Assembly: GCA_039028635.1 (NCBI GenBank)
Contig: JBCCHV010000045.1
Span: 1 to 52,675 of the forward strand
Reading direction: 5' to 3'
Origin: Acidobacteriota bacterium
GTDB lineage: Bacteria; Acidobacteriota; Thermoanaerobaculia; Multivoradales; JBCCEF01
Length of the DNA: 52,675 nt
Shown: positions 4,613-27,097 of the stretch, piece after piece
Numbering within the stretch: the first letter of the stretch is position 1
Layout of the letters: every line of letters starts with the position of its first letter
The notes under the pieces: model-generated
What the model saw: the letters and a program-made list of their open reading frames with translations, nothing else
Databases searched by the model: none
What the model was told of the DNA's origin: nothing
Made by a program: the position numbers and the translations under genes

Positions 4613-7600
4613 TTGTCGCCCTGGACTGCAAACAGGACTCCGTTGCCGATGCCTCGCGCTCAGCTCGCGGCCGCCTCAGAGATGGTTGGGCGACTGCTGA
4701 CCGACAACGCATTTCTGCGGACCTTACTTTGGCTTTGGCTGTACTTGGCCTGGGCACCCGCGGTATGGGGTGGCGTGGTGGTCGAGACTCTCGGGCCAGA
4801 CTCGGCGCTGGCGCAGGCGGGGGTCGAGGCCGGGGACGTGCTGGAGACCTGGTCGGCGGTGGATGGCCGAGATGCTCGCGAGGCGTTGGCCCATCCCTGT
4901 GCTTTCGAAGCCCTCCGTCTCGAGCAGGGGCCGCGCGGTCCGGTGAAGATTTTCGGAAGGCGCGGTTCGCGACCGGTGTCCTTCGCGGTGCCGCCTGGAA
5001 ACTGGACCGCGGTGATTCGGCCGGATCTGAACCTATCGAGCCTCGAGTCCTATCGGCAGCTGGTCCGCGAGGTCGAGAGAGGAGAGGCCGGTAGTGCCTT
5101 CTCTATGGCCGAGGCGGTGGTCGCATCCTTGCCGGAGGAAGTCGCCTGGGAGATCGAGCTGTGGTGGTGGTTGCGCTTGGGCGAGCTTCTGCAGGAGGCA
5201 GGAGCTCTCGAGCAGGCCGAAAACGCCCTGATTCGGGGCGAGGAGATCGCCGGCGAGACCTTCGGCAAGGTTCTCTTGCATCTGGCTCGCGGGCGCTTGG
5301 CGGAACGGGCGCTCGAGCTCGATGAAGCTTCGAAACACTACCGAGCGGTTCTCGAGCCGAGCTTCGGTGAGGTGTCGATGCCGCTGGTCCGAGCATTGGC
5401 TCATTCGCACCTCGGCAAGGTCGCTCTGGCGCGGGGTGAGATGGCGCAGCTGCACGAGCACACGCTCCGCGCTCTGGCGCTGACCGAGGAGGTGGCGCCG
5501 CAGAGCTTCGCATTGGCCCGGTGCCTCAACGCCGCGGCCCACGTCGCCACCTTCATGGGGGCGATCGATGTCGCCGAGTCCTCCCTGATTCGTGCCCGAG
5601 AGTTGCTCATCGAGCTGGCCCCGCAGAGCAATGAGCTGGGCACGACACTGCTCCTCCTCGGTGCCGTCGAACGGCATCGCAACCGACTTGGCTCATCGGA
5701 GGCCTTTGTCCGAAGGTCTTTGGAGATCGCGGAGAGGCTAGCGCCCGAGGAGCGCGACGCGGTGGTGGCCTATCGCCAGCGGGCGATGGCCGAGCTGGCT
5801 CGCATGAAAGGCGATCTGGCGACGGCGGAAGACTTCGCCCGCCGAGCTCTGGACGCTGCAGAGACGGAGACTCCCGGCAGCTGGCAGCTCGCCATGACCT
5901 TGACGACTCTGGGCGACATCCTCGGCGACAGCGGTCGTGAGCAACTCGCCGAAGGGCTTTATCGTCGGGCTCTCGTCGTCTTGGAGGGCCTTGGGAATGG
6001 ATTTTTTGGCGCTCACGTTCGCGGCAATCTGGCAGCCGCCTTGGCCGACCTCGGCAGGCTCGAGGAGGCGGAGGAGCACACCCGAAGGACCCTGACCTTC
6101 TATCGCGAAGTGACTCCTCGAGGATTGTCCATTCCCTGGGCATTGCGACAGCTTGGCGAGCTCGCCCAGGCACGGGGTGATCTCGCCGCGTCGGAGGGTC
6201 ATTTGCGAGAAGCCGTGGCTTTTCTCGAGAATCACGCTCCCCATCACCTCCTGCTGGCCACCTGCCTGGTACGCCTGGGTGATCTATTGCGCCTCCAAGA
6301 CCGACTGCCGGAGGCCGAGGCGGTGCTGCGCCGCAGCTTCGGCATCTACGAACGTGGTGGAGGGCTCATCGAGGAGATTGCGCGCCACCGATTGGGCCTG
6401 GCTTTGGCCCAGAAGGGCGATTCGGAGGCCGCTGCCGAGGAGCTCTCCCGTGCCGTTTTGGTGCTCGAGAATCAGTTCCTCCGCATGGGCGGCTCGCGAA
6501 TGGCCCAGGGTGGATTGCGAGCCCGGGCCCGCCAGCTCTACGATGATGCGCTCGCCGCGCAGCTCACGGTGGGTGATCACGAGCAAGCCTTTCAGCTTCT
6601 GGAGCGTTCGCGGGCGCGCAGCCTCCTCGACATGCTGGCCGAACGCGATCTCGATTTTGCGTTGGAGCTTCCGGAGGCGTTGCGTCAGGCCCAGCTCGAT
6701 CTCGAGCAGCGCTACCGTCGCGCGGTCGATGCTGCGATGGTCTCGGGGAAGCCCGAGGAGCTCCGGGAGCGCCTTGCCGCTTTGGCCCTACTACGCGAAG
6801 AGCAAAGCAGTCTGGTGGCGAGCCTGCGAAGGACTGCTCCTCGCTATGCGGCCCTGCGATACCCACAGCCGCTCGAGGTCGAAGCGGTGAGGCGGCGCTT
6901 GGATCCGGGAACGGTATTGGTTGCATTCCACGTTGCGAGCAGTCGGACCGACCTCTTCGTGGTCACGGCCGAGAAAGGGCTGGTCGAGACGGCGACGCTG
7001 CCGGTGGGCTCTGCGGTGCTGGAAGAGAAGGTCGAAGAGTTTCGCACACTGATTCGCCAAAGGCGTCACCCCGGCTCGCCGCTGTTTCGTTCTCTGACGA
7101 CGGCGGGGCGCGATCTCTACGACCTGTTGATTGCTCCCGTTGCCGACTCCATCGAAGGCGGCGAGCGACTTTTGATCGTGCCCGATGGAGCACTTCACCG
7201 GCTACCCTTCGCCGCCTTGGTGCGGCCCGCGGGCGACTATCTGATCGCTTGGCGCCCGCTCCAGTCTGTTCTCTCGGCGACTCTCTATGCTCAGCTCACA
7301 GAGCGGCCGAGGCCGACCGGCGCCGCCGCATCCCGTGTCCGGCTCGCCGCCTTCGGTGATCCTCGTTATCCGTCCTGGGCCGCTCGGAGATCGGAAACGG
7401 TCGCGGAATCGCGAGCCCGCGGGAGTGAGGCCTTCCGCTGGACGGAGCTGCCCTTCAGCCGGTTCGAGGTCGAGGCCATCGCAGGGCTCTTCCCGGCAGC
7501 CTCGGTGCGTCTCTACCTCGGAGACGAGGCGACGGAGGAGGCGGTTTTGGACCTCCCGGCAGGACTCGATCTGGTCCACTTCGCGGTCCACGGTCAGGTC

Positions 7601-8050
7601 GACGACCACTTTCCGCTCAACTCCGCCTTGGCTCTGACCATTCCGGAAGACCTCGAAGAGGCGTCGCAGAACGGTTTGCTCCAGGCTTGGGAGATCTTCG
7701 ATCGGCTGCGCCTCGATGTCGACCTGGTGGTCCTGTCGGCCTGCGCCACGGCCTTGGGCCAGGAACGAGGCGGCGAGGGATTGGTGGGGCTGGCTCGAGC
7801 CTTCCATTACGCCGGGGCTCGCGCGGTTCTCGCTTCACTTTGGAACATCGACGATCGGGCTACCGCTGAGCTGATGGTGCACTTCTACCGTGGGCTTCGC
7901 GAGGGGCGGTCCAAGGACGAAGCCTTGAGGGCGGCCCAGCTTGCGTTGATCGGTGGCGCCTCGCCGAGCGATTCCCCAGGCGTTCGGCGAGGGCATGAGG
8001 TGGCAGCGCCTTACTACTGGTCCGCGTTTCAGATCTACGGGGCGCGGTGA
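4613..8050 (+). CDS. PDZ-TPR-CHAT caspase-like peptidase, membrane-anchored or secreted
   Basis: Up to 1145 residues. A hydrophobic segment at about residues 31-53 acts as signal peptide or anchor. A PDZ-like segment follows (S-A-L-A-Q-A-G-V-E-A-G-D-V-L, about 60-110), then at least ten TPR-like helical repeats (about 130-640), a coiled region, and a C-terminal CHAT domain (about 780-1140). The CHAT dyad is intact: His993 in H-F-A-V-H-G and Cys1044 in L-S-A-C-A-T, followed by G-E-G-L-V-G-L-A-R-A-F and S-L-W-N-I-D-D. CHAT domains are caspase-like cysteine peptidases. The TTG start is uncertain; ATG 4649 (AGGA 11 nt upstream) or ATG 4682 would keep the signal segment. It lies convergent to the PKD/sigma genes. 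Confidence 0.9.
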   Translation: MSPWTANRTPLPMPRAQLAAASEMVGRLLTDNAFLRTLLWLWLYLAWAPAVWGGVVVETLGPDSALAQAGVEAGDVLETWSAVDGRDAREALAHPCAFEALRLEQGPRGPVKIFGRRGSRPVSFAVPPGNWTAVIRPDLNLSSLESYRQLVREVERGEAGSAFSMAEAVVASLPEEVAWEIELWWWLRLGELLQEAGALEQAENALIRGEEIAGETFGKVLLHLARGRLAERALELDEASKHYRAVLEPSFGEVSMPLVRALAHSHLGKVALARGEMAQLHEHTLRALALTEEVAPQSFALARCLNAAAHVATFMGAIDVAESSLIRARELLIELAPQSNELGTTLLLLGAVERHRNRLGSSEAFVRRSLEIAERLAPEERDAVVAYRQRAMAELARMKGDLATAEDFARRALDAAETETPGSWQLAMTLTTLGDILGDSGREQLAEGLYRRALVVLEGLGNGFFGAHVRGNLAAALADLGRLEEAEEHTRRTLTFYREVTPRGLSIPWALRQLGELAQARGDLAASEGHLREAVAFLENHAPHHLLLATCLVRLGDLLRLQDRLPEAEAVLRRSFGIYERGGGLIEEIARHRLGLALAQKGDSEAAAEELSRAVLVLENQFLRMGGSRMAQGGLRARARQLYDDALAAQLTVGDHEQAFQLLERSRARSLLDMLAERDLDFALELPEALRQAQLDLEQRYRRAVDAAMVSGKPEELRERLAALALLREEQSSLVASLRRTAPRYAALRYPQPLEVEAVRRRLDPGTVLVAFHVASSRTDLFVVTAEKGLVETATLPVGSAVLEEKVEEFRTLIRQRRHPGSPLFRSLTTAGRDLYDLLIAPVADSIEGGERLLIVPDGALHRLPFAALVRPAGDYLIAWRPLQSVLSATLYAQLTERPRPTGAAASRVRLAAFGDPRYPSWAARRSETVAESRARGSEAFRWTELPFSRFEVEAIAGLFPAASVRLYLGDEATEEAVLDLPAGLDLVHFAVHGQVDDHFPLNSALALTIPEDLEEASQNGLLQAWEIFDRLRLDVDLVVLSACATALGQERGGEGLVGLARAFHYAGARAVLASLWNIDDRATAELMVHFYRGLREGRSKDEALRAAQLALIGGASPSDSPGVRRGHEVAAPYYWSAFQIYGAR

Positions 8051-8838: not shown

Positions 8839-9870
8839 CTATGGGCTCTGCAGAATGCGAAGCTCGTAAGTGCCTGCCGATCGTTCGAGGTCGCCCTCCC
8901 GGGCCGTGAGCTGCAGGTGATAGTCGCCGGCTGGAAAGTGGCGGGTCGGGAGGAGGACGAAGAGCTCCGGCAGAGCTCCCCCGGCCATCTCGCCATTCCA
9001 GAGGGGACGATCGTCCCCGTGAGCGAAGATCTTCAGTGAGTAGGACTGCTGAACATGGCCGGTGACCTCGGGAATCAGGAGGAGGACGATGTAGGGAGTC
9101 CCTTCGGCAACGGCTCCAACCTCTCGAGATCCCCGGTCGTTGCCGGGCTCCAGCCAGACGACGGGCGGATTGGGGATTGGCGCCGCGGTCGTCCTCTCCA
9201 GGTCGTCGATGACACTCTTCTGGTGGATCACGATTATGGAGGCCGCGGCGAGGAGGCTGGCCGCCGCCACCGCCGGGAACCAGCGTCGAGCCTCCCGAGA
9301 TGAATCTGTTGCCTTCGCGGTCTTCGACGCGAAGGCACTGTCCGCCGTCGGTTCCCGGAAGGCGTCTTCCAGCTCGAGACGGATTGCTTCGATCCGGCCC
9401 AGAAGCTGTCGGTACTCTGGATCCTTCTCGGTCTCGAGGACGACGAGGGGCGCTGCTGCCGAGCCATCTCGCAGATCGCGACGGCGCTGACGAGCGGCTT
9501 GGACCTGTTCCCTGGTGAGACTCCCGGAACGAAATCCCGACGCGAAGGCCGCCGGATCGATCCAGCAGCCCTGACCACAGCGCAGAACTCGGGCGTCATC
9601 TGCCAGAACGTCCGCCCTGCCCTGCATCGGGCAGGTGTCGACCGGAATCAGAAGGAGTGCTCCCTGCGGCTCGACCTCGAGGACCGCCCATTCGATGGGG
9701 GTATCGGTCTGATCGTCGAGCTTCGTTCCCGAGGGCAATATCCAAAGGTCACCCACTCTCGGGCCCGCGGCCGGCGGCGCCATGGGGGCGCTGAGGCGAG
9801 CTCGGGCCTCGCCGCCTTGGCGCACCAAGCGTTCGAAGATTGACGACTGCGTCGAGGATCTTTCAGTCAT
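8839..9870 (-). CDS. single-pass membrane protein coupled to a sigma factor (anti-sigma-like)
   Basis: A 343-residue protein. A cytoplasmic part (residues 1-196) contains a small beta-rich segment beginning G-D-L-W-I-L and ending R-C-G-Q-G-C-W-I-D-P, then a charged helix. One TM helix spans about 197-216. The C-terminal part (about 235-343) is an Ig-like beta domain with F-P-A-G-D-Y-H-L-Q-L. Its ATG overlaps the stop of the upstream sigma-like gene (ATGA), showing translational coupling. A cytoplasmic-TM-periplasmic layout beside a sigma factor suggests an anti-sigma or sensor, but I see no ZAS/HxxxCxxC motif, so this is inference. Confidence 0.75.
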   Translation of the reverse strand: MTERSSTQSSIFERLVRQGGEARARLSAPMAPPAAGPRVGDLWILPSGTKLDDQTDTPIEWAVLEVEPQGALLLIPVDTCPMQGRADVLADDARVLRCGQGCWIDPAAFASGFRSGSLTREQVQAARQRRRDLRDGSAAAPLVVLETEKDPEYRQLLGRIEAIRLELEDAFREPTADSAFASKTAKATDSSREARRWFPAVAAASLLAAASIIVIHQKSVIDDLERTTAAPIPNPPVVWLEPGNDRGSREVGAVAEGTPYIVLLLIPEVTGHVQQSYSLKIFAHGDDRPLWNGEMAGGALPELFVLLPTRHFPAGDYHLQLTAREGDLERSAGTYELRILQSP

Positions 9871-11072
9871 TCCAGGTCACCGTTCGACGGGCGAGAAAGT
9901 GACAAACAGTGTCTCACCTTCCGCTGCAGCGAAGAGTAGAGGTCTCGGATTCGGGCACGAGGAATCTTCAAGGTCTCCGAGAGCTGGCGACGAGACGGAG
10001 GGTTGCCGCGGTCCTCGAGACAGTGACTCCAGAGGAAGGTCCACAAGCGGTGCAGGTAGGCTTGGGTGCGTGGAGTCGTCGGATCGGCTTCGACGGCTTC
10101 GCTGACGCAGGCGACGAGTTGGTGAAAGGCCTCGCGCTCCTCGAGGGCGAACCCCGGACGGAGTGCTTCGGCGAGGCTTCCCAGGGAATGGTCGACCTCT
10201 GCGACGGGGGTCTCGCGCGGCCAGCTGGCGCTCCATAGGTGGCGGACTCGGGCTTGGAAGTGTCGCGAGACTTCACCGAACCGAAGCTCGGCGACTCCGT
10301 CCCGAGAAAGCTCCAAGATCCTCGCTCTCAGGATTTCGATCACGGGATCGAGGGCGCGTCCACGAGCGGTCACCAGGTCCGGCATGGTTTCGTCGGCCCA
10401 ACCCCAGATGGTGGCCCGAAGCTCGCTGGGAGATCGTTTGGTGGCTCTGGTGAGCGGGCCTGAGTCGATGGGCGGCGCGACGGCGGTGTTTGTCCGCACT
10501 TCGGGGTCTCCCTGCACGACGACGAGCGTGCCTTCCTCGACGGCACGACAGATGGCAGATCTCAAGGCCAGATAGGAGCGGAACCCCAGGGGATCGTGCT
10601 TGCGCTGCAACTCGTGGAGGAAGTATCGGACGTTTCGAAAGATGAGCCCTTCGATGTTGGCCTTTTCGCGTCCGAGCTGGGCATTGAGGCTGCTGAGGCG
10701 TTTCAGAAACACGAAGATGTAGCAGTCGGCGGTCAGCTCATCGATGGCGTTCCGAGTCCAGCGTGGGGATCCGAGGATTCCCACACACGTCGGCGATACC
10801 GAGAACAGAGAGCGGGCTCTCAGCTCCGAGACGAGAGCGCTCCGCAGCTTCTCCCAGGAGGGACTCAGCTCTTGCGCCGAGACGTCACCCCGGACCAGCT
10901 GACGGACATGCTCGGTGAAGATGAGATTTCGAATAATTTCCACTTCGAACAATCTACATCGAATGCGGAGGATCGGTTCTAACCAACCGAGGGTTTTGCG
11001 CCGATGCGCCGGTCGTCGCTCGAGACTTGAAAGTGGCGAGTGTTCGATAGCGCACCGTTTCCCGCTTCTCAA
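9867..11072 (-). CDS. ECF-like sigma-70 family factor with large insert
   Basis: Up to 401 residues. A sigma region 2-like part is seen in D-E-L-T-A-D-C-Y-I-F-V-F, then A-N-I-E-G-L-I-F-R-N-V-R-Y-F-L-H-E-L. A region 4-like helix-turn-helix lies at the end (R-R-Q-L-S-E-T-L-K-I-P-R-A-R-I-R-D-L). Between them are about 200 residues of helical sequence, far longer than the usual ECF linker. The start is unsure: TTG 11072 has no ribosome site, and the first 40 Arg-rich residues look non-coding; a GTG or TTG near 10945-10955 is likelier. No internal ATG is available. It is coupled to the membrane protein and divergent from the cysteine-rich secreted protein at 11121. Confidence 0.7.
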   Translation of the reverse strand: MRSGKRCAIEHSPLSSLERRPAHRRKTLGWLEPILRIRCRLFEVEIIRNLIFTEHVRQLVRGDVSAQELSPSWEKLRSALVSELRARSLFSVSPTCVGILGSPRWTRNAIDELTADCYIFVFLKRLSSLNAQLGREKANIEGLIFRNVRYFLHELQRKHDPLGFRSYLALRSAICRAVEEGTLVVVQGDPEVRTNTAVAPPIDSGPLTRATKRSPSELRATIWGWADETMPDLVTARGRALDPVIEILRARILELSRDGVAELRFGEVSRHFQARVRHLWSASWPRETPVAEVDHSLGSLAEALRPGFALEEREAFHQLVACVSEAVEADPTTPRTQAYLHRLWTFLWSHCLEDRGNPPSRRQLSETLKIPRARIRDLYSSLQRKVRHCLSLSRPSNGDLE

Positions 11073-19702: not shown

Positions 19703-20476
19703 CTACGACGGCGGCCGGAAGGCGTCCGAAGGGGTGTGGACCAGCGATGCAGCGTCGCTGCCCGGATTGCGAGTCCGGTACTCGCTGACCAGGTGGAAGC
19801 CGAGGGAGTAGCCCGTCCAGGCGGGAATGTCGGCCCCGCTGCCGAAGAACCAGGCCTGGAAAGAGAAGGCGCTGCTGTCGAGCTCCGGGCGAGCGCGTTG
19901 GAGCATCTCGGTGATCTGACTTTCCGACAGCGCTTCCGACCAGGGGGGTGGCAAGATGCCCAGCAGGTCGACGGCGAAGTGGTCGGCCATGCCCTCGAGA
20001 ACCATGTGGTCGAGGAGGGTGCGGGCGAAGCCCAAACCGCGGAAGCGGGCGGCATGGTGGAGCTCGTGGGCGACGATGTGCGGTAGGTACTGCGCGATCG
20101 ACGTCTCGAGGCTGCCGAAGGCCGGATCGACCACGATTTCGATGTCGTTCGGTCCCTGAGCGTAGCCGCCGAGGCCGAAGCCTGGAATGGTGCGGGCGGC
20201 ATCGGCGGTGACCGTCACCCGGACGCCGGCGATCGAAAGGCGAGTTCCGGCCAGCCGATAGTTGTCCTCGATGATCTGGGTGATGGTGGCCTGGTAGGGC
20301 GCCAGAGCCTGGGGATTGGCGAAGACGATGTTGCCCGCCGGTGACGGTGGCGCGGGCTCCGTCGGGCTCGAGCTGTCGCAGGCGGCGATGGTCAGGGCCA
20401 GCAGGCTCACCAGCAATAGGTATCCAGGGCGCCGAAGGAGCTTGGCGGCATTACCCTTTGGCCATAAGGCGATCAT
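19703..20476 (-). CDS. DUF2268-type zinc metalloprotease lipoprotein
   Basis: A 257-residue lipoprotein (signal segment with lipobox L-T-I-A-A-C). The metal site is V-A-H-E-L-H-H-A-A-R (HExxH), with E-G-M-A-D-H-F-A about 20 residues later supplying the third ligand, the arrangement of the DUF2268 predicted Zn-protease family. Ser/Pro-rich linker follows the lipidated Cys. The start ATG has only weak GAAGAG before it, and a -10-like TATGCT lies 6 nt further up (minus strand 20483-20488), so the message may be leaderless. It follows the coiled-coil lipoprotein on the same strand after 82 bp. Confidence 0.85.
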   Translation of the reverse strand: MIALWPKGNAAKLLRRPGYLLLVSLLALTIAACDSSSPTEPAPPSPAGNIVFANPQALAPYQATITQIIEDNYRLAGTRLSIAGVRVTVTADAARTIPGFGLGGYAQGPNDIEIVVDPAFGSLETSIAQYLPHIVAHELHHAARFRGLGFARTLLDHMVLEGMADHFAVDLLGILPPPWSEALSESQITEMLQRARPELDSSAFSFQAWFFGSGADIPAWTGYSLGFHLVSEYRTRNPGSDAASLVHTPSDAFRPPS

Positions 20477-20558: not shown

Positions 20559-21377
20559 TCAGTTGCCTCGCAGGCGTTCGAGCTTGCGTGCATCGCGCTC
20601 GGAAAAGCGGTGGCTGCGGAAGAGGGATCGGCCCTCGTCGGTATCGAGTCGAATCGGCGTGACGGCGAAACGGCTGCCCGGAGAGGGCTCGAGACTGCCC
20701 CAACGGTCGTAGCGGTTGAACTCAATCGTCCAGGCCCCGACGGCGCCGGCGGCGAGTCCTTCCGTCGGTCGGTAGTCGAACTGGCCTTCGAAGGCGGCTT
20801 CCATTCGCCCCGGTACCTCCAGGCGGACGAGGAATCGGGCGCGTTCGATGGTGCTGCTGGTGCCGTTGGTGACCACCAGGTCGATGCGTGGCCTGGCTTC
20901 GGCGGTTGCCGGGGAGAAGGCGGCGTGGGTGACCTCGAAGGCGTCGAGGTGCTGCTGGGCGCTCTCGGCCGATGAGCGTCGGGCTTCGAGACGGTCGATC
21001 TCACGGCGCTGACTCTCGCGCCGTTGGCGTTGGCCTTCGACCGCGGTCAGGCTGAGCTCGATATGTAACCGCCGGCCGGTTTCGAGCACCTCGCGTCCCG
21101 ACAGGCCGTCGAGCTCCGGAACCACTCCGATCTCGAAGGGGCGAGAGGATTCGACTCGCGATCGTGCGAAGAGCTCGGCGTCTTCCAGATTCCGATAAGC
21201 GATCAGACCGAGGGCCTGGTCGAAGTCGGGTCGCTGGCTGGCAGGCAACGAGCTGCGCACCCGCTCGACCGAGGCCGCCGAGGCCTGCGGAGAGCTCATG
21301 TCGAGGCGCGGTGGACCGCAGGCTAGAAGCAGCGGGAGCGTAGTGCCGGCAAGGACGCGGGTGAACCAACTCATCAT
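20559..21377 (-). CDS. lipoprotein with coiled coil, unknown function
   Basis: ATG 21377 (or the next codon, ATG 21374), with GAGGG upstream, gives about 272 residues and a lipoprotein signal ending L-L-L-A-C-G. Residues about 70-110 are a helical TPR-like segment (Q-A-L-G-L-I-A-Y-R-N-L-E-D-A-E-L-F). A strongly charged coiled coil (Q-R-Q-R-R-E-S-Q-R-R-E-I-D-R-L) follows, then a beta domain with V-T-N-G-T-S-S-T-I and a final basic helix. I do not recognise the family; the layout suggests an outer- or inner-membrane-tethered periplasmic protein. Divergent from the kinase fusion. Confidence 0.7.
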   Translation of the reverse strand: MMSWFTRVLAGTTLPLLLACGPPRLDMSSPQASAASVERVRSSLPASQRPDFDQALGLIAYRNLEDAELFARSRVESSRPFEIGVVPELDGLSGREVLETGRRLHIELSLTAVEGQRQRRESQRREIDRLEARRSSAESAQQHLDAFEVTHAAFSPATAEARPRIDLVVTNGTSSTIERARFLVRLEVPGRMEAAFEGQFDYRPTEGLAAGAVGAWTIEFNRYDRWGSLEPSPGSRFAVTPIRLDTDEGRSLFRSHRFSERDARKLERLRGN

Positions 21378-21540
21378 TCGAAAACCCTCGGTCAAACGGT
21401 GGGACTCTTTTTCGCGCGGCCAACTCGAGAGGCGGCCCGAGGCACTGACTGTTCTGTCCGAGATCGCCACGACTCTACGACAGTTCCCAGGGCTCCCGGA
21501 CTCGATCGTTTGTAATACTCCTGAGAGTCCGGATCACATG

Positions 21541-21550
21541 CTTACGTAAG
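21541..21550. promoter_or_regulatory. perfect palindrome upstream of the winged-helix kinase
   Basis: CTTACGTAAG is a perfect 10-bp palindrome ending 17 bases before the kinase-fusion start, in a locally AT-richer divergent region with TAATACT nearby (about 21511). It is a natural candidate site for the DNA-binding domain of the downstream protein. Confidence 0.4.
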
Positions 21551-21566
21551 GAATTGGGAGGCTTTG

Positions 21567-24500
21567 GTGCCGCGCGCAGCACAAGTGTTTCGTATCGGCG
21601 AGTGGGTACTGGACCCTGAGCTGCATCAGCTCACCGGGCCCGAGGATAGCGTCCACCTCGAGCCGCGGACCGCGGCGGTGCTGCTGGAGCTGGCGCGCCA
21701 TGCCGGTCGAGTGCTGAGTCGGGACGAGCTCCTCGATGCGGTCTGGGATCAGGCCTTCGTCGGGGAAGGAGCCTTGACCCACTGCATCTGGGAGCTGCGC
21801 AAGGCTTTTGGCGACGACGCCAAGAATCCTTCCTTCATTCAAACCGTGCCGCGCCGGGGATATCGGCTGCTCGCGCCAGTCAGTCGCCCAGCGGTGGTGG
21901 CGGTTCGAGCTCTGGTCATCTGGCGCCAGGAGGTCGCCGCGGCGGAGGCTGACGAGCTTTGCCAGGGCTTGCTCGGCCGGCACGAAGGTCGCCCGATCTG
22001 CTTTGGTGATCCCGTGGAAGGACCGGTCGAAGGTGTGTTCGGCGGGCTCTTCCGGAGCGCGGTCGCGGCGGTACGTTTCGCCCTTGGATTTCAGCAGGAA
22101 TGGGCCCGCCAGCTGCCGGCCCTCGGAGCGCCGGCCGTGTCGGTTCATCTCGACGAGGTCGAAGTGCAGGAGTCGACGGATTCGTCGGCCCTGGCGGAGG
22201 TCGGAGGATCCGGGGTTTCCTTGGCGACGGCGCTGGTCTTCGCTGCTGTCGGTCGGCAGGTTCTGGTGTCGCGCAGCGTCTTCGATCTCTCCCGGGCTGC
22301 GGGTGAGGAGGTCTCGGACGAGGGAGCCACCCTGCGCTGGCTCGCCCATGGGGACTATGCCCTGGAGGGGGCGACGGAATCGATCGAGGTCTTCGAGGTC
22401 GGCGTCGAAGGTTTCGCACCCTTGTCGCCTCCGGCCGGGGGCACCGGACTCCTGCGCCCGACCGGAGTCGAGCGCACCGTGCTTGGCTGGCGGCCGGCTT
22501 CGGCGCTGGTGGTTCCGCAGCGCCCCCACTGGCAGCTGGTTCGGAAGCTCGGTGAAGGAGGTTTCGGTGAGGTGTGGTTGACCCGCCACGCCAAGACCGG
22601 TGATTTTCGAGTCTTCAAGTTCTGCACTGAGGTCGAACGCCTGCGCGCACTGCAGCGTGAGGTGACGCTGTTTCGGCTCCTCAAGGAAGGGCTCGGGGAT
22701 CGTCGCGATATCGCCCGCATCCTCGACTGGAACTTCGACGAAGCGCCCTACTTTCTCGAGCTCGAGTACGTGGAAGGGGGCAGTCTTGCGGATTGGGCCG
22801 AGTCGCAGGGCGGCCTGGAGGAAATCCCGCTCGCGACTCGCCTCGAGGTGGTGGCGCAGGCCTGCGAAGCGCTCGCCTCGGCGCACTCGATCGGCATCCT
22901 GCACAAGGATGTCAAGCCCGGAAACCTGCTGCTCGGTGAGGGACGGGAGGGCGAGCCGAGGGTCTGTCTGACCGATTTCGGGATCGGGCGAGTGTCCGAT
23001 CCCAGTCAACTGGCGGCGGCCGGGATCACCGCTCTCGGCCTGACCGAGACGCACGACACGTCGAGCGAGAGCGGAACCCGTCTCTACCTGGCGCCCGAGC
23101 TGCTCGAGGGCAAGCCGGCGAGCATTCAATCCGACCTCTACGCCCTCGGAGTCGTGCTCTATCAATCGGTCGTGGGACGTTTTGATCGCGCCATCGGGCC
23201 GGGCTGGCAGCGCGACGTCGAGGACGACCTGTTGCGCGAAGACATCGCCTTGTGTGTCGATCGCTCCCCCAAGCAGCGCTCGATGAGCGCCCTCGACATT
23301 GCCGAACGCCTGCGCACCCTCGAGATACGACGTCATCGGTGGGAAGAAGAGCGTCGTCGCCTCGCCGAAGCGGAAGCGACGCGCCAAGCGCTGGCTCATG
23401 CCCAGCGTCGGCGTCGACTCTTGAGCGCCTTGGCGGCGGTGGCTGGACTGGTGGCGGTGGTGGTCAGCGTGCTGACTTTCTGGGCCGTCGAAGCCCGCCA
23501 TCGGGCCGAGGCCCACCGCGAGCGTGCCGAGACCTTGGTGTCCTTTCTGCTGGGAGATCTGCGCGGCACCCTCGAGGGGGTGGGTCGTCTCGATGCTCTC
23601 GAATCGGCGGCCGGCGAGGTGTTGCGGTACTACGGCTCGCTCCCCGTCGAGGAAATGACCGACGAAGCTCTGGCGCGCCATGCCGAGGCGCTTCGGCAGA
23701 TCGGCGATGTCCGCATGCGCGCCGGTTCTCTCGAGCGGGCCGAGGAGGCCTTCGCCGAGGCCGCCCGCGTCGCCGAGAGCCTGGCGCGCCGAGATGCGTC
23801 GCGGGCGCAGTGGCAGGCGGATCTGGCTGATAGCCGCTTCTGGCTCGGCGATGTGCAGCGCAGACGGGGAAACGTGAAGGCTGCCTTGAAGGCGTTCGAG
23901 GCTCACCGATCGGTCTACGGCAGGCTGGTCTCAGACGATCCGGCGCGGCGCAAGTGGCGTCTCGAGCTGGCCTATGGGCACGGCAATGTCGGTGGAGTGC
24001 TCGCCGACCTCGGTCGCAGTGACGAGGCTCGCGAGCAAATGACGAAGCGTTTGGAGATCATCGAACAACTGGTGGCCGAGGAACCGGAAGATCGCGAGCT
24101 GCAGCTCGCCCTGGCCTCGAGCTTTCACCGCCTGGGGCGGGTGCTGGAGCGGCAGGGAGATCTCGCCGGAGCCCTCGAGCGTTATCGCAGCGATCATCGA
24201 GTGCTGCTCCAACTGACGGCCGAGGAGCCCGAGGACAGCCGTCTCCAGGAGCGCCTCGCCACCAGTGCCGGCTATGTTGGCTTGATCCACTGGCTGCGCG
24301 GCGACGCGGCCGCGGCACAAAGTTTCTATGAGACCGAGCAGGCGGTTTTCGAACGCCTGCTGGCCATCGATGGCGACAATGCTCGCTGGCAGCGCAACCT
24401 GGCGATCGCCCTCGGCAAGGTTGGGCGGGCGCGGCAGTTTCTAGGAGACCTTTCCGCTGCCGAGGGTTTGTATCGACGCTCTCTGGAGATGTTCGAGGGA

Positions 24501-24968
24501 TTGGTCGAGCGCGACGAATCACGCGCCGGCTGGCGCCGAGAGTTGGCCGCTCGACATCTGCGGTTGGCCGATCTCGCGCTGGCGCGGGGAGCGGCGCCGG
24601 TCGGTCTCGATGAGGCCGACCGGGCTCGCCGCGTGCTCGAGTCCGTGCTCGATCGCAATCCAGCCGACCGCACAGCCCAGGGCAGCCTGGGGGCCGTCGA
24701 GCTCCTGCGGGGGGAGGCTCTGCGGGCTGCTTGCGACGAATCCCGAGCACGGCAGACCTGGCAGCGGGCCCGCGACCTGCTCGAGCCCTTGGCCACCGGG
24801 GCCGAGGATGGACGCCTTCTCGCGGATTTGGCGCGTGCGCTGATCTTGCTCGGCGAAACGGAATCGGCGCTGCCGCTTTTCGTGCGGCTGCGCCGGGCGG
24901 GCTACCGAGCTCCGGATTTCGTCGAGTTCTGCCGGCGCTCGGACATTTCCTACCTACAGAATCCCTGA
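21567..24968 (+). CDS. winged-helix / pseudo-cyclase / Ser-Thr kinase / TM / TPR fusion
   Basis: GGGAGG (21556-21561) best fits GTG 21567 (TTG 21564 is the alternative), giving 1133 residues. In order: OmpR/CadC-type winged helix (about 7-100, with R-R-G-Y-R-L at the end); a nucleotidyl-cyclase-like fold (about 105-290) that has lost both metal-binding Asp positions; a Hanks-type kinase (about 320-590) with G-E-G-G-F-G-E-V, Lys351, catalytic H-K-D-V-K-P-G-N (Asp448), DFG Asp470 and A-P-E-L-L; one TM helix (about 620-644); and six or more TPRs to the end. The kinase looks active. A DNA-binding domain on a membrane kinase would put promoter, kinase and extracytoplasmic TPR sensor in one chain. 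Its stop abuts the convergent beta-helix gene. Confidence 0.92.
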   Translation: MPRAAQVFRIGEWVLDPELHQLTGPEDSVHLEPRTAAVLLELARHAGRVLSRDELLDAVWDQAFVGEGALTHCIWELRKAFGDDAKNPSFIQTVPRRGYRLLAPVSRPAVVAVRALVIWRQEVAAAEADELCQGLLGRHEGRPICFGDPVEGPVEGVFGGLFRSAVAAVRFALGFQQEWARQLPALGAPAVSVHLDEVEVQESTDSSALAEVGGSGVSLATALVFAAVGRQVLVSRSVFDLSRAAGEEVSDEGATLRWLAHGDYALEGATESIEVFEVGVEGFAPLSPPAGGTGLLRPTGVERTVLGWRPASALVVPQRPHWQLVRKLGEGGFGEVWLTRHAKTGDFRVFKFCTEVERLRALQREVTLFRLLKEGLGDRRDIARILDWNFDEAPYFLELEYVEGGSLADWAESQGGLEEIPLATRLEVVAQACEALASAHSIGILHKDVKPGNLLLGEGREGEPRVCLTDFGIGRVSDPSQLAAAGITALGLTETHDTSSESGTRLYLAPELLEGKPASIQSDLYALGVVLYQSVVGRFDRAIGPGWQRDVEDDLLREDIALCVDRSPKQRSMSALDIAERLRTLEIRRHRWEEERRRLAEAEATRQALAHAQRRRRLLSALAAVAGLVAVVVSVLTFWAVEARHRAEAHRERAETLVSFLLGDLRGTLEGVGRLDALESAAGEVLRYYGSLPVEEMTDEALARHAEALRQIGDVRMRAGSLERAEEAFAEAARVAESLARRDASRAQWQADLADSRFWLGDVQRRRGNVKAALKAFEAHRSVYGRLVSDDPARRKWRLELAYGHGNVGGVLADLGRSDEAREQMTKRLEIIEQLVAEEPEDRELQLALASSFHRLGRVLERQGDLAGALERYRSDHRVLLQLTAEEPEDSRLQERLATSAGYVGLIHWLRGDAAAAQSFYETEQAVFERLLAIDGDNARWQRNLAIALGKVGRARQFLGDLSAAEGLYRRSLEMFEGLVERDESRAGWRRELAARHLRLADLALARGAAPVGLDEADRARRVLESVLDRNPADRTAQGSLGAVELLRGEALRAACDESRARQTWQRARDLLEPLATGAEDGRLLADLARALILLGETESALPLFVRLRRAGYRAPDFVEFCRRSDISYLQNP

Positions 24969-26687
24969 CTACGTTCCATCGCCGGACTCGATGGCCGTTT
25001 CTGGATCCCAGAAGTCGACCTCACCGTCGACAAACTCCATGACGTAGTTCACTCGCTCGAGGTAGCAGGTGGGAACGTCGACGACGAAGTAGGCGTCGTC
25101 CGCGGTGGTGTCGTCGGCGGAGGCTTCGACGCCGCTGGGCAGGCTCGCTTCCCAGTCGGAGTTATCGGCGGTGCAGTGCTGCTGACAGCCGGCGGGATCC
25201 GCAAAGCAGTCCAGCTCACAGTCCGGCTCGAGAAACCAGACGGCGCGGATGCCGAGGCTCAGGCCGTGGACCTGCCAGGCGAGCTGACAACCGTCGGCGG
25301 GAACCGGATCGAAGGTGAAGGTCTCTTCGGCCCCGGCACAGGAGCCGTTGTTGAGCACGTTGCCGTCGCTCTTGTACTGGTCGGTGTAGAGAAGGGTGGT
25401 GACCGAGTCGGGATCGGCGATGGAGGTATGGCAGATCGACTCGTAGGCGCCGATGTCGCAGAGGGGGGCCGGGTTGTTGAGGCCGTCGCCGAAGTTGAAG
25501 CGGTCGACTCCGCGCTGGTCGGGAACGCGGCCGACGTTCTCGCAGGGGTACTGGTCAAACAGGATCGAGCAGAAGGGATCTTCGTCCGCCGGGATGTCGC
25601 AGAGCGGAATGTGGACCTTGGTGAATGCACCGTCGTCGACGAGGGCTTCCGTCAGGGTGAAGGTGACGTCTTCATGGTCGTCGAGATGGGTCAGGGCGCA
25701 GCTCGCGTCGGTGGCGGCGTTGTGTCCGCCGCTCGCCAGACCGGCGAGGTCGCCGGCGCAGAGGTCGGCGTCGCCGTGCAAGGCGGTCTTTTCGATGGCG
25801 AAAGCACGGTCGCCGGCGAGGTAGAGGGAGCTGCCGCTGCCGGCCGGAAGAATGCTGTTGCCCTTGAAGGTCACCTGCTCGACGGTGTCGGCAGGCGTAT
25901 TGGAAGGTCCGCTGCGGTAGAGGGCACCGCCCTCGAAGGCCTCATTGCCCGAAAAGGTGCTGTTGCGGAAGGTGAGCTGATCGACGTTCGACCAGGCGAC
26001 GATGGCGCCGCCCCGGTTGGTTGCGGTGTTGCCCGAGAAAGTGCTGTTGAAGACGTCCAAGCGACCGCGGTCGGCAGCCAGGGCTCCACCGCTCACCGCG
26101 GCATTGTTCCTCAGGGTGGCGAAAATGAGATCGACCTCTCCTCGACTGTAGATGGCGCCGCCGGCGATGGTCGCTTGGTTGTCGGAGAGCTCGAGGCGCA
26201 GTCCCTCGACCTTGCCCTCCTGGCTGATCCAAATGGCCCCTCCGCGGGGAGCTCGGCCGCCGGCGAGGGTGAGCCGAACCAGATTCAAGGAGCCCGTGCC
26301 CCCGACATTGAAGAAACGATGATCGCTGGCCGAGGTTGCGGCTTCGATGCGCGCGCCGTGACCGTTGATGGTGACGCCGCCAACGATCTTGGGGAGCTGG
26401 CCTTCGGTTTTGTAAGTGGTGTCCGCGGCGAGCTCGATCACGGCTGCCGCGCTACCCGAAATCCAGCGGCAGCCGCCGGTGGAAGACGCTTCTTTGGCGG
26501 TCTTGACGGCCTCCCAGAGGGTGCAAGTGCTTTCACCGTCGTCTCCCCAGGCTGTCGAGGTCACCGAGATGGTGGTGCCCGTGGCCGTGGTGGCGAGGGT
26601 GAGCAAAAGCACGGTCGTGAGGATCAGACCGCGGCCGGCGGAGCGGGACGAGGTTGAGGAAGGACGGAACTGGATGCAGGTCGACAT
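24969..26687 (-). CDS. secreted right-handed beta-helix protein (choice-of-anchor/CSLREA-like)
   Basis: ATG 26687 with AGGAG gives 572 residues. Signal peptide about 20-38 (L-I-L-T-T-V-L-L-L-T-L-A). The segment S-T-C-T-L-W-E-A-V resembles the CSLREA region that begins such proteins. Residues about 110-330 are parallel beta-helix coils (N-A-A-V-S-G-G-A-L, N-S-T-F-S-G-N-T-A-T-N-R-G-G-A-I, N-S-T-F-S-G-N-E-A-F-E-G-G-A-L). The end of the helix has D-I-G-A-Y-E. A cysteine-rich beta domain follows (about 340-572). Probably surface-attached or released. No C-terminal IPTL signal. Confidence 0.85.
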   Translation of the reverse strand: MSTCIQFRPSSTSSRSAGRGLILTTVLLLTLATTATGTTISVTSTAWGDDGESTCTLWEAVKTAKEASSTGGCRWISGSAAAVIELAADTTYKTEGQLPKIVGGVTINGHGARIEAATSASDHRFFNVGGTGSLNLVRLTLAGGRAPRGGAIWISQEGKVEGLRLELSDNQATIAGGAIYSRGEVDLIFATLRNNAAVSGGALAADRGRLDVFNSTFSGNTATNRGGAIVAWSNVDQLTFRNSTFSGNEAFEGGALYRSGPSNTPADTVEQVTFKGNSILPAGSGSSLYLAGDRAFAIEKTALHGDADLCAGDLAGLASGGHNAATDASCALTHLDDHEDVTFTLTEALVDDGAFTKVHIPLCDIPADEDPFCSILFDQYPCENVGRVPDQRGVDRFNFGDGLNNPAPLCDIGAYESICHTSIADPDSVTTLLYTDQYKSDGNVLNNGSCAGAEETFTFDPVPADGCQLAWQVHGLSLGIRAVWFLEPDCELDCFADPAGCQQHCTADNSDWEASLPSGVEASADDTTADDAYFVVDVPTCYLERVNYVMEFVDGEVDFWDPETAIESGDGT

Positions 26688-27097
26688 GGTTCGACTCCTG
26701 AAAGGAAAAGCCCTGCGGCGGTGATCTGTCGCGAGGACTGAGTGATTCGGTGCTGCGTTGAAGGTCATTGAAACGCGGTTCCAGGGAGCGAGTCCTCTAG
26801 CTCGTCTCTGGAAACTCTCTGGATGACCAAGGCTCGTCTTTTCAGTGGTTTGAAGGGGCTGATCGTTGCAGCCCCGAGGACATCCTCGAGGCTGTCGGCA
26901 GCCAGGCCAGCGGAAATTCCTTTGTCCGTGGGGCTTTTCGGCGGCCTCCGAGGGGAGGACGAGGTTTCCAGAGGAAAGCCCGAGAGTTCCTAGAGGACGC
27001 CGGGACCCGCTGTGGGCTGAGATGGGGCCGTCACAGCACGGGGCCGATCCCAAGAACGCTTCCGTGCTCACCGAATCCGAACTTCAAAGGAGACGTC
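26688..27097. other. 410-bp divergent intergenic region
   Basis: It separates two divergent beta-helix genes. It holds both ribosome sites (AGGAG near 26695 on the minus strand and AAAGGAG near 27087 on the plus strand) and a bulged hairpin at about 26782-26814 (arms CCAGGGA and TCTCTGG plus CGAG/CTCG). I see no coding sequence and no clear -35/-10 pair. Confidence 0.4.

Follow-up and report, generated by a model that had tools for sequence, protein, structure and literature searches.

A single gene of an Acidobacteriota bacterium (NCBI GenBank assembly GCA_039028635.1, contig JBCCHV010000045.1) joins a CadC/ToxR-like winged helix, a class III cyclase fold and a Hanks-type Ser/Thr kinase on one chain with a transmembrane (TM) helix and a tetratricopeptide repeat (TPR)-like superhelix. 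We analyzed the whole 52,675-nt stretch that contains it (the window) and compared the encoded protein (the query) with relatives in other genomes. With confidence about evenly divided, our best explanation is that the query regulates transcription from the membrane, is laid out like ToxR and CadC, and carries a cytoplasmic Hanks-type Ser/Thr kinase. The five modules and their order, the loss of metal ligands from the cyclase fold, and the intact kinase motifs were read from sequence comparison and models; Pfam, a profile-to-PDB search, and a confident structure model of the cyclase part support the domain order that had been proposed from the DNA alone (the original prediction). The gene and its modules are as follows, with winged helix-turn-helix abbreviated wHTH and open reading frame ORF.

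21567..24968, + strand: complete gene for a protein of 1133 aa, running from wHTH through pseudo-cyclase, Hanks kinase and TM to TPR (ORF translation, Pfam, model)
21582..21881, + strand: CadC/ToxR-like wHTH, residues 6-105 (PF00486, 5ju7 match)
21894..22430, + strand: residues 110-288, a class III cyclase fold lacking both metal Asp (profile, model, alignment)
22521..23336, + strand: Hanks-type Ser/Thr kinase of the FKF/HKD subfamily, residues about 319-590 (PF00069, motif table, PknB match)
23418..23474, + strand: predicted single TM helix, residues 618-636 (hydropathy 2.69, basic N-flank)
23661..24896, + strand: TPR-like superhelix of nine helical hairpins, residues 699-1110, predicted periplasmic (TPR_12, model helices)

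The N-terminal domain is a winged helix of the OmpR/PhoB type found in ToxR/CadC-like regulators. Pfam Trans_reg_C (PF00486) matched residues 28-101 (E 2.8e-17), and the nearest PDB match was the CadC DNA-binding domain 5ju7 (E 8.4e-24), followed by ToxR (about 2e-13). The NCBIfam CadC equivalog NF007540 scored 103.4 bits against a cut-off of 400 and covered residues 6-107 only, placing the query outside that equivalog. Sections of a CadC study (PMC5430869) list twelve residues at which alanine variants are impaired (Arg32, Arg50, Arg60, Val63, Thr64, His66, Thr69, Gln70, Ser73, Arg76, Lys95, and Arg96); R50A and R76A almost abolish DNA binding, and His66 is called crucial. Using the alignment with 5ju7 from the PDB profile search, we found six of the twelve to be identical in the query (R34, R52, V65, T71, R78, and R97), the counterparts of R50 and R76 among them, and a seventh to be a Lys-to-Arg change (R96). 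The wing motif T[VI]PRRGYR occurred in the query and in all four of its orthologues. On these grounds the winged helix is predicted to be competent for DNA binding, with altered specificity.

The remaining five positions differ (Q62, G66, G68, H72, and W75), including the counterpart of His66. They would suit an ordinary transmembrane Hanks receptor kinase in which the winged helix and cyclase fold had both been remodelled into protein-protein or dimer modules that do not bind DNA. The adjoining cyclase fold is clearly remodelled, and kinase matches lacking a winged helix are common in the bacterium's own genome, where inspection of 72 matches revealed no second frame with both domains. Retention of R52, R78, and R97 (CadC R50, R76, and R96), together with the wing motif shared by the query and four orthologues, argues the other way, and we regard a loss of DNA binding as unlikely.

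The kinase domain matched Pfam Pkinase (PF00069) at residues 323-538 (E 2.6e-30; 106.1 bits against a cut-off of 31.7), and its closest matches were PknB (E 3.2e-17) together with other kinases. All elements that define a Hanks-type kinase were present: the glycine loop (GEGGFGEV), the VAIK Lys (K351), the alpha-C Glu (E365), the HxD motif (HKD448VKPGN), DFG (D470FG), and APE. The complete set of kinase residues claimed at the outset was thus found, and the catalytic motifs were retained in all five wHTH-cyclase-kinase proteins. From these motifs we infer that the query kinase is active. A CadC-like regulator whose kinase fold serves as an ATP-binding or dimer module, with no phosphotransfer, would be in keeping with the HKD that replaces HRD throughout most of the subfamily (34 of 37 rows; FKF in 35 of 37). 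Degenerate relatives point in the same direction, among them L044 (HQD and DFQ) and nine cyclase-less rows with no GxGxxG in any loop slice. Set against this, the query and four orthologues keep every catalytic residue examined, and we consider a non-phosphorylating kinase fold very unlikely.

The single TM helix behind the kinase was predicted with a custom hydropathy script. Hydropathy peaked at 2.69 over residues 618-636, with eight Lys or Arg in the 25 residues before the helix and four in the 25 after. A weaker peak at residues 216-234 falls in a helix and strand of the modelled cyclase fold and was not counted as TM. Among 27 wHTH-kinase rows, the TM helix followed the kinase in 25 (the exceptions being L032, cut off, and L089, in which none was found). 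In these 25 rows the N-flank was more basic than the C-flank in 19, equal in 5, and less basic in 1. Since ATP and DNA are inside and the TM helix is single, the TPRs should lie outside. We therefore predict a cytoplasmic head and kinase with periplasmic TPRs, and the hydropathy data agree with the topology originally drawn.

From about residue 700 onward the query matched Pfam TPR families, with TPR_12 at E 1.5e-14. The modelled region consisted of nine helical hairpins, in which 14 of 16 helix-to-helix steps measured exactly 48 residues, a period longer than the 34 residues of the Pfam TPR_1 model. This almost exact 48-residue period runs through query residues 699-1078 (window 23661-24800).

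The region between winged helix and kinase gave no Pfam match at a limit of E 10 (HMMER drops most matches above about 0.1). A 27-row profile of the region matched the class III cyclases Rv1900c (E 9.1e-19) and Ma1120 (E 1e-18) in the profile-to-PDB search. The AlphaFold model of residues 110-288 (predicted local distance difference test, pLDDT, 91.7; predicted template modelling score, pTM, 0.90) compared closely with the Rv1900c cyclase domain 1ybt (Z 21.6, root mean square deviation 1.7, 151 residues; VIA) and with Ma1120 (Z 20.8). Fold and homology are therefore those of a class III nucleotidyl cyclase, but the two metal-binding Asp residues are missing. The first, within TDLVDST of relatives, falls in an alignment gap; the second, within DKTDG, is aligned with Glu151 beside a five-residue insertion. 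The Lys and Arg of neighbouring motifs are also lost. These alignments bear out the reported loss of both metal Asp, and cyclase catalysis in the query appears very unlikely.

We also scanned eight cyclase regions with PF00211 (Guanylate_cyc). Matches were obtained for L050 (22.7 bits, above the cut-off of 21.9), L034 (17.5) and L038 (16.0), both below it; the other five, including the query, gave none. PF00211 was also absent from the 25 commonest of 35 families in a Pfam scan of the 27 members. In the 27-row alignment, which omits L060 and uses one row each for L037/L061 and L058/L062 (the same contigs), both metal Asp were found in 15 rows, neither in nine (query, L032, L033, L039, L042, L043, L047, L048, and L057), and one in three (L035, L041, and L058). 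By this alignment the cyclase Asp residues have been lost repeatedly in the family. Because the orthologue L034 retains both, the metal site was probably lost late within the winged-helix group. Six residues are invariant in all 27 rows (Q231, F239, R243, W258, H261, and G262). As the cyclase-kinase pair stays together in the nine rows where both Asp are gone, a non-catalytic role is suggested, with the domain kept for structure or control. Such repeated loss of a metal site inside a preserved cyclase-kinase pair offers a natural experiment on enzymes becoming control domains.

Many family members are cyclase-kinase proteins lacking a winged helix. In 15 of 23 such relatives a second kinase precedes the cyclase domain; the remaining eight include truncated sequences. 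Because this kinase takes the N-terminal place in 15 of 23, the cyclase-kinase pair looks like a unit with exchangeable N-terminal modules. The original idea of a binding or dimer module stands as far as both Asp are gone from the query. One point needs correction: the fold was not simply added to a regulator, as it belongs to a cyclase-kinase pair with varied N-terminal parts, and L034 keeps both Asp. In the kinase-cyclase-kinase-TM proteins (L038, L039, L040, L046, L047, L048, L049, L052, L055, L057, and others), two different Hanks kinases flank the cyclase fold, whose metal Asp survive in some members (L038) but not in others (L039).

Among 58 further genomes from this order, four (G016, G040, G033, and G029) contain an orthologue with winged helix, cyclase fold, and kinase, at 42-65% identity. 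The G016 copy is cut off (a 657-aa frame). The other three (L033, L034, and L035) align from the winged helix via the TM helix into the TPRs at 42-58% identity, and in two of the orthologues (G033 and G029) Pfam recognized a winged helix, a kinase, and TPR families. The query's unusual domain mix and an assembly in 117 contigs might suggest a chimeric contig or the spurious joining of two genes; the same architecture aligned across other genomes refutes this in practice and leaves it a negligible probability. The presence of a CadC-like head and a Hanks kinase in one chain, as first noticed, is thus real in the query and its orthologues. A genome of the same genus (G001) gave no match to the query.

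How might such a protein work? In the mechanism that we propose, the periplasmic TPR superhelix would bind an envelope protein or peptide, and binding would alter how two chains pair across the membrane. The cyclase fold, no longer able to make cyclic nucleotide, would provide a pairing and control surface for its partner kinase. The kinase would then autophosphorylate, altering the engagement of promoter DNA by the two N-terminal winged helices, and would probably phosphorylate other proteins as well. That the chains form dimers, that the signal runs in this direction, and that phosphorylation has any effect on DNA binding is what we infer here.

A different assignment of input and output also deserves weight. 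The kinase may itself be the output, with the winged helix as an address label that places it at certain promoters to phosphorylate transcription proteins in trans and with no switching of the query's own DNA binding. Ser/Thr kinases that phosphorylate separate regulators, winged-helix ones included, are documented in the accessible part of one review of the subject (PMC4601284). The intact kinase motifs would suit this scheme, as would an N-terminal module that is exchanged for a second kinase in 15 of 23 relatives while the cyclase-kinase core is kept. It must contend with the limited DNA that a membrane-bound chain can reach. Regulators of the ToxR/CadC kind have DNA binding as their very output, and the query shares their layout, with its winged helix at the N-terminus. 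We view the address-label scheme as credible, if doubtful.

Several observations weigh against a transmembrane regulator that switches its own DNA binding. The C-flank of the TM helix is also fairly basic (four Lys or Arg), and the full-length model (mean pLDDT 85.5, pTM 0.50) gives no domain-domain contacts. Five CadC activity residues differ, as described above. Comparison of 97 winged helices revealed no acceptor residue specific to those fused to kinases. Nor is there a conserved neighbour that would indicate a target: the genes upstream of the G033 orthologue are unlike those in G029, and the contigs from G016 and G040 are too short to compare. An upstream palindrome also failed as an operator (see below). 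Control of DNA binding by phosphorylation in cis, as originally suggested, is plausible but unsupported.

T35 of the winged helix was considered as a phospho-acceptor linked to the kinase fusion and rejected. In a first set, Ser or Thr stood at this position in 4 of 5 wHTH-cyclase-kinase proteins, in 13 of 13 type B proteins (a second winged helix-kinase form, described below), and in 1 of 10 other winged helices, the sole case being L101, a G027 match split across two frames. Among the 97 winged helices (31 kinase-fused, 63 not, and 3 too short to classify, as labelled by a custom hidden Markov model and stretches of about 2 kb), the residue was Ser or Thr in 21 of 31 fused and 8 of 63 unfused. 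Speaking against the link, position 35 is Pro in all nine cyclase-less FKF-kinase proteins and Ala in the G040 orthologue. Ser also occurs in four of the five unfused winged helices in which H-[AC]-[IV]-W, a signature of the fused domains, is present. T35 marks a branch of winged helices instead. Position 71 was Ser or Thr in 27 of 31 fused and 38 of 63 unfused domains.

Winged helices joined to Hanks kinases extend beyond the query and its orthologues. Counts in these surveys are lower bounds, as the candidates scored per genome numbered up to 22 for the query and up to 34 for type B in the order, and 3 and 4 in two further scans; with so few scored per genome, absences in the phylum scans are weak evidence. 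Type B is represented by L075:5682-8462 (minus strand), which combines winged helix, a kinase of the common HRD type, TM helix, and TPRs and is separated from the G029 orthologue by one small ORF. Of the 59 genomes of the order, the own genome counted among them, at least 15 hold type B matches that extend from winged helix into kinase (G029, G033, G005, G020, G040, G013, G015, G021, G028, G014, G046, G002, G003, G027, and G010). The G027 match is split over two frames, and that of G010 lies at a contig end.

A third form lacks the cyclase domain. In a 396-genome sample of the phylum, none of the three candidates scored per genome gave a further match to the query extending into the winged helix; wHTH-kinase proteins without a cyclase domain were detected in G348, G313, and G397 (two genes). 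When named genomes were scanned, the cyclase-less form appeared in metagenome-assembled genomes (MAGs) of Lysobacteraceae, Nevskia, and unclassified Gammaproteobacteria. With one of these proteins as the search sequence, at least 129 matches at E <= 1e-75 were distributed over 43 of 85 genomes of its gammaproteobacterial order. By count of the listed matches, 126 of the 129 start at residue 18 or earlier of that search sequence, so they include the winged helix. Seven cyclase-less proteins were scanned for TPR families, which scored above the Pfam cut-off in five (L063, L065, L066, L070, and L071), below it in L072, and not at all in L067. A plasmid collection held no match to the L066 form at E 1e-30. 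Up to eight winged helix-kinase matches were seen per gammaproteobacterial genome (G442, G446, G433, and G487), some of them clustered on one strand (G433:C28, G446:C5, and G487:C80). The combination of winged helix and Hanks kinase recurs in many proteins, and the original prediction was too narrow in its view of the distribution.

Trees were built of both domains. In a tree of 53 kinase domains, with type B represented by L075 alone, the query-like kinases formed one 37-row branch (100/100). L075 has a long branch within the N-terminal kinases and groups with two of these at 98/90. Because L075 lies outside the query-like branch, at least two Hanks kinase lineages have, by this tree, been fused to winged helices. 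Within the subfamily, four of the five kinases of the cyclase-bearing form grouped at 89/68, with L035 unplaced, and the nine cyclase-less kinases formed a separate branch (100/98). The winged-helix tree, from which L101 was left out, likewise placed the cyclase-bearing five (98/92) and the cyclase-less nine (84/75) on different branches. Orthologues in four of 58 genomes and at least two kinase lineages fused ahead of a TM helix suggest that it is useful to have winged helix and kinase on one chain.

Comparison with known systems helps to define what is distinctive in the query. Like ToxR, CadC, and TcpP, it has an N-terminal OmpR-type winged helix, with a predicted single TM helix and periplasmic sensor; unlike theirs, its winged helix is separated from the TM helix by a cyclase fold and a Hanks kinase. 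With PknB, StkP, and kinase-TPR receptor kinases it shares the kinase motifs, one TM helix after the kinase, and a predicted outer sensor, but it differs in its N-terminal DNA-binding head, its HKD in place of HRD, and the cyclase fold before the kinase. Residues 110-288 have the fold of the class III cyclases Rv1900c and Ma1120 without their two metal Asp. TOMM kinase/cyclase fusions (TIGR03903, NCBIfam) also combine kinase and cyclase on one chain; the query scored 64.2 bits against a cut-off of 705.75, in a match that spans only residues 381-537 of the kinase, and falls outside that family. The cyclase-less wHTH-kinase-TM proteins (L063-L067 and L070-L073, from Lysobacteraceae and Nevskia MAGs and some Acidobacteriota) have a kinase of the same subfamily with a winged helix before it and a TM helix behind. 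They differ from the query in having no cyclase fold, no GxGxxG in the loop slice, and a winged helix of a different branch.

Bacteroides hybrid two-component regulators likewise place sensor, membrane segment, kinase, and DNA-binding domain on one chain (PMC10269533), but the query has a Ser/Thr-type kinase and an N-terminal DNA-binding domain. With E values up to 1 admitted, Pfam reported no HisKA, HATPase_c, or receiver domain in the query. Hybrids that contain histidine-kinase and receiver domains are reported in the same paper, a survey of transmembrane transcription regulators; where its available text mentions "kinase", histidine kinases or the GHKL superfamily are meant, and the word tetratricopeptide does not occur (PMC10269533). 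PknK is described with a C-terminal STAND domain in the accessible part of PMC4601284. No description of a winged helix-Hanks kinase architecture turned up in the literature searched, which is weak evidence, as subscription papers lay mostly outside it.

Somewhat short of even confidence, we suggest that proteins combining winged helix, Hanks kinase, and TM helix, in most cases with a TPR sensor, form a signalling class of their own in bacteria. It would be a Ser/Thr counterpart of hybrid two-component regulators, with kinase, outer sensor, and DNA-binding output in one chain, that was assembled more than once from different kinases and occurs in at least two phyla. In the query form, a dead cyclase would be added as a surface for control. 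Such proteins are not uncommon, as the matches in 43 of 85 genomes of one gammaproteobacterial order attest. With a Ser/Thr kinase and a DNA-binding domain on one membrane-bound chain, the self-switching of a DNA-binding domain by a Hanks kinase becomes testable with one protein.

Two further elements lie just upstream of the gene.

21556..21561, + strand: probable ribosome-binding site GGGAGG, with 5 nt between its end and GTG (direct sequence reading)
21541..21550, no strand assigned: CTTACGTAAG palindrome, not counted as a functional part (genome frequency, orthologue surroundings)

The start codon is GTG at 21567 on the + strand, and the stop ends at 24968. A TTG immediately precedes the GTG, and the gene could start one codon upstream. 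The original prediction had named the CTTACGTAAG region as a place to check for DNA binding. The 6.28 Mb genome contains two such sites against 1.8 expected from base composition, and the sequence was not found in the stretches around any of the four orthologues; its role as an operator was rejected on this chance frequency and absence. The window holds 117 perfect 10-bp palindromes. In favour of the palindrome, 0 of 100 shuffles matched CTTACGTAAG in a control within the window alone, but the pattern had been chosen after being seen.

Around the gene, the ORF at window 24969-27071 (minus strand) has Chlam_PMP and weak beta-helix matches, and its stop codon abuts the query stop at 24968 tail to tail with zero gap. 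The divergent neighbour on the other side (20562-21470, minus strand) matches DUF6694 (E 3.5e-7) and is followed by a predicted Zn protease (19706-20476, minus strand; DUF2268, E 6.6e-27). Elsewhere in the window, 4616-8047 (+ strand) encodes a TPR-CHAT protein, with PF12770 (E 4.7e-71) after TPR_12 repeats. Near the G033 orthologue, a 1913-aa ORF (L074:10899-16640, minus strand) has, by eye, a Hanks kinase at its start and an ATPase-like part behind it; the adjoining ORF (9316-11040) has, also by eye, a TIR-like look with an ATPase part.

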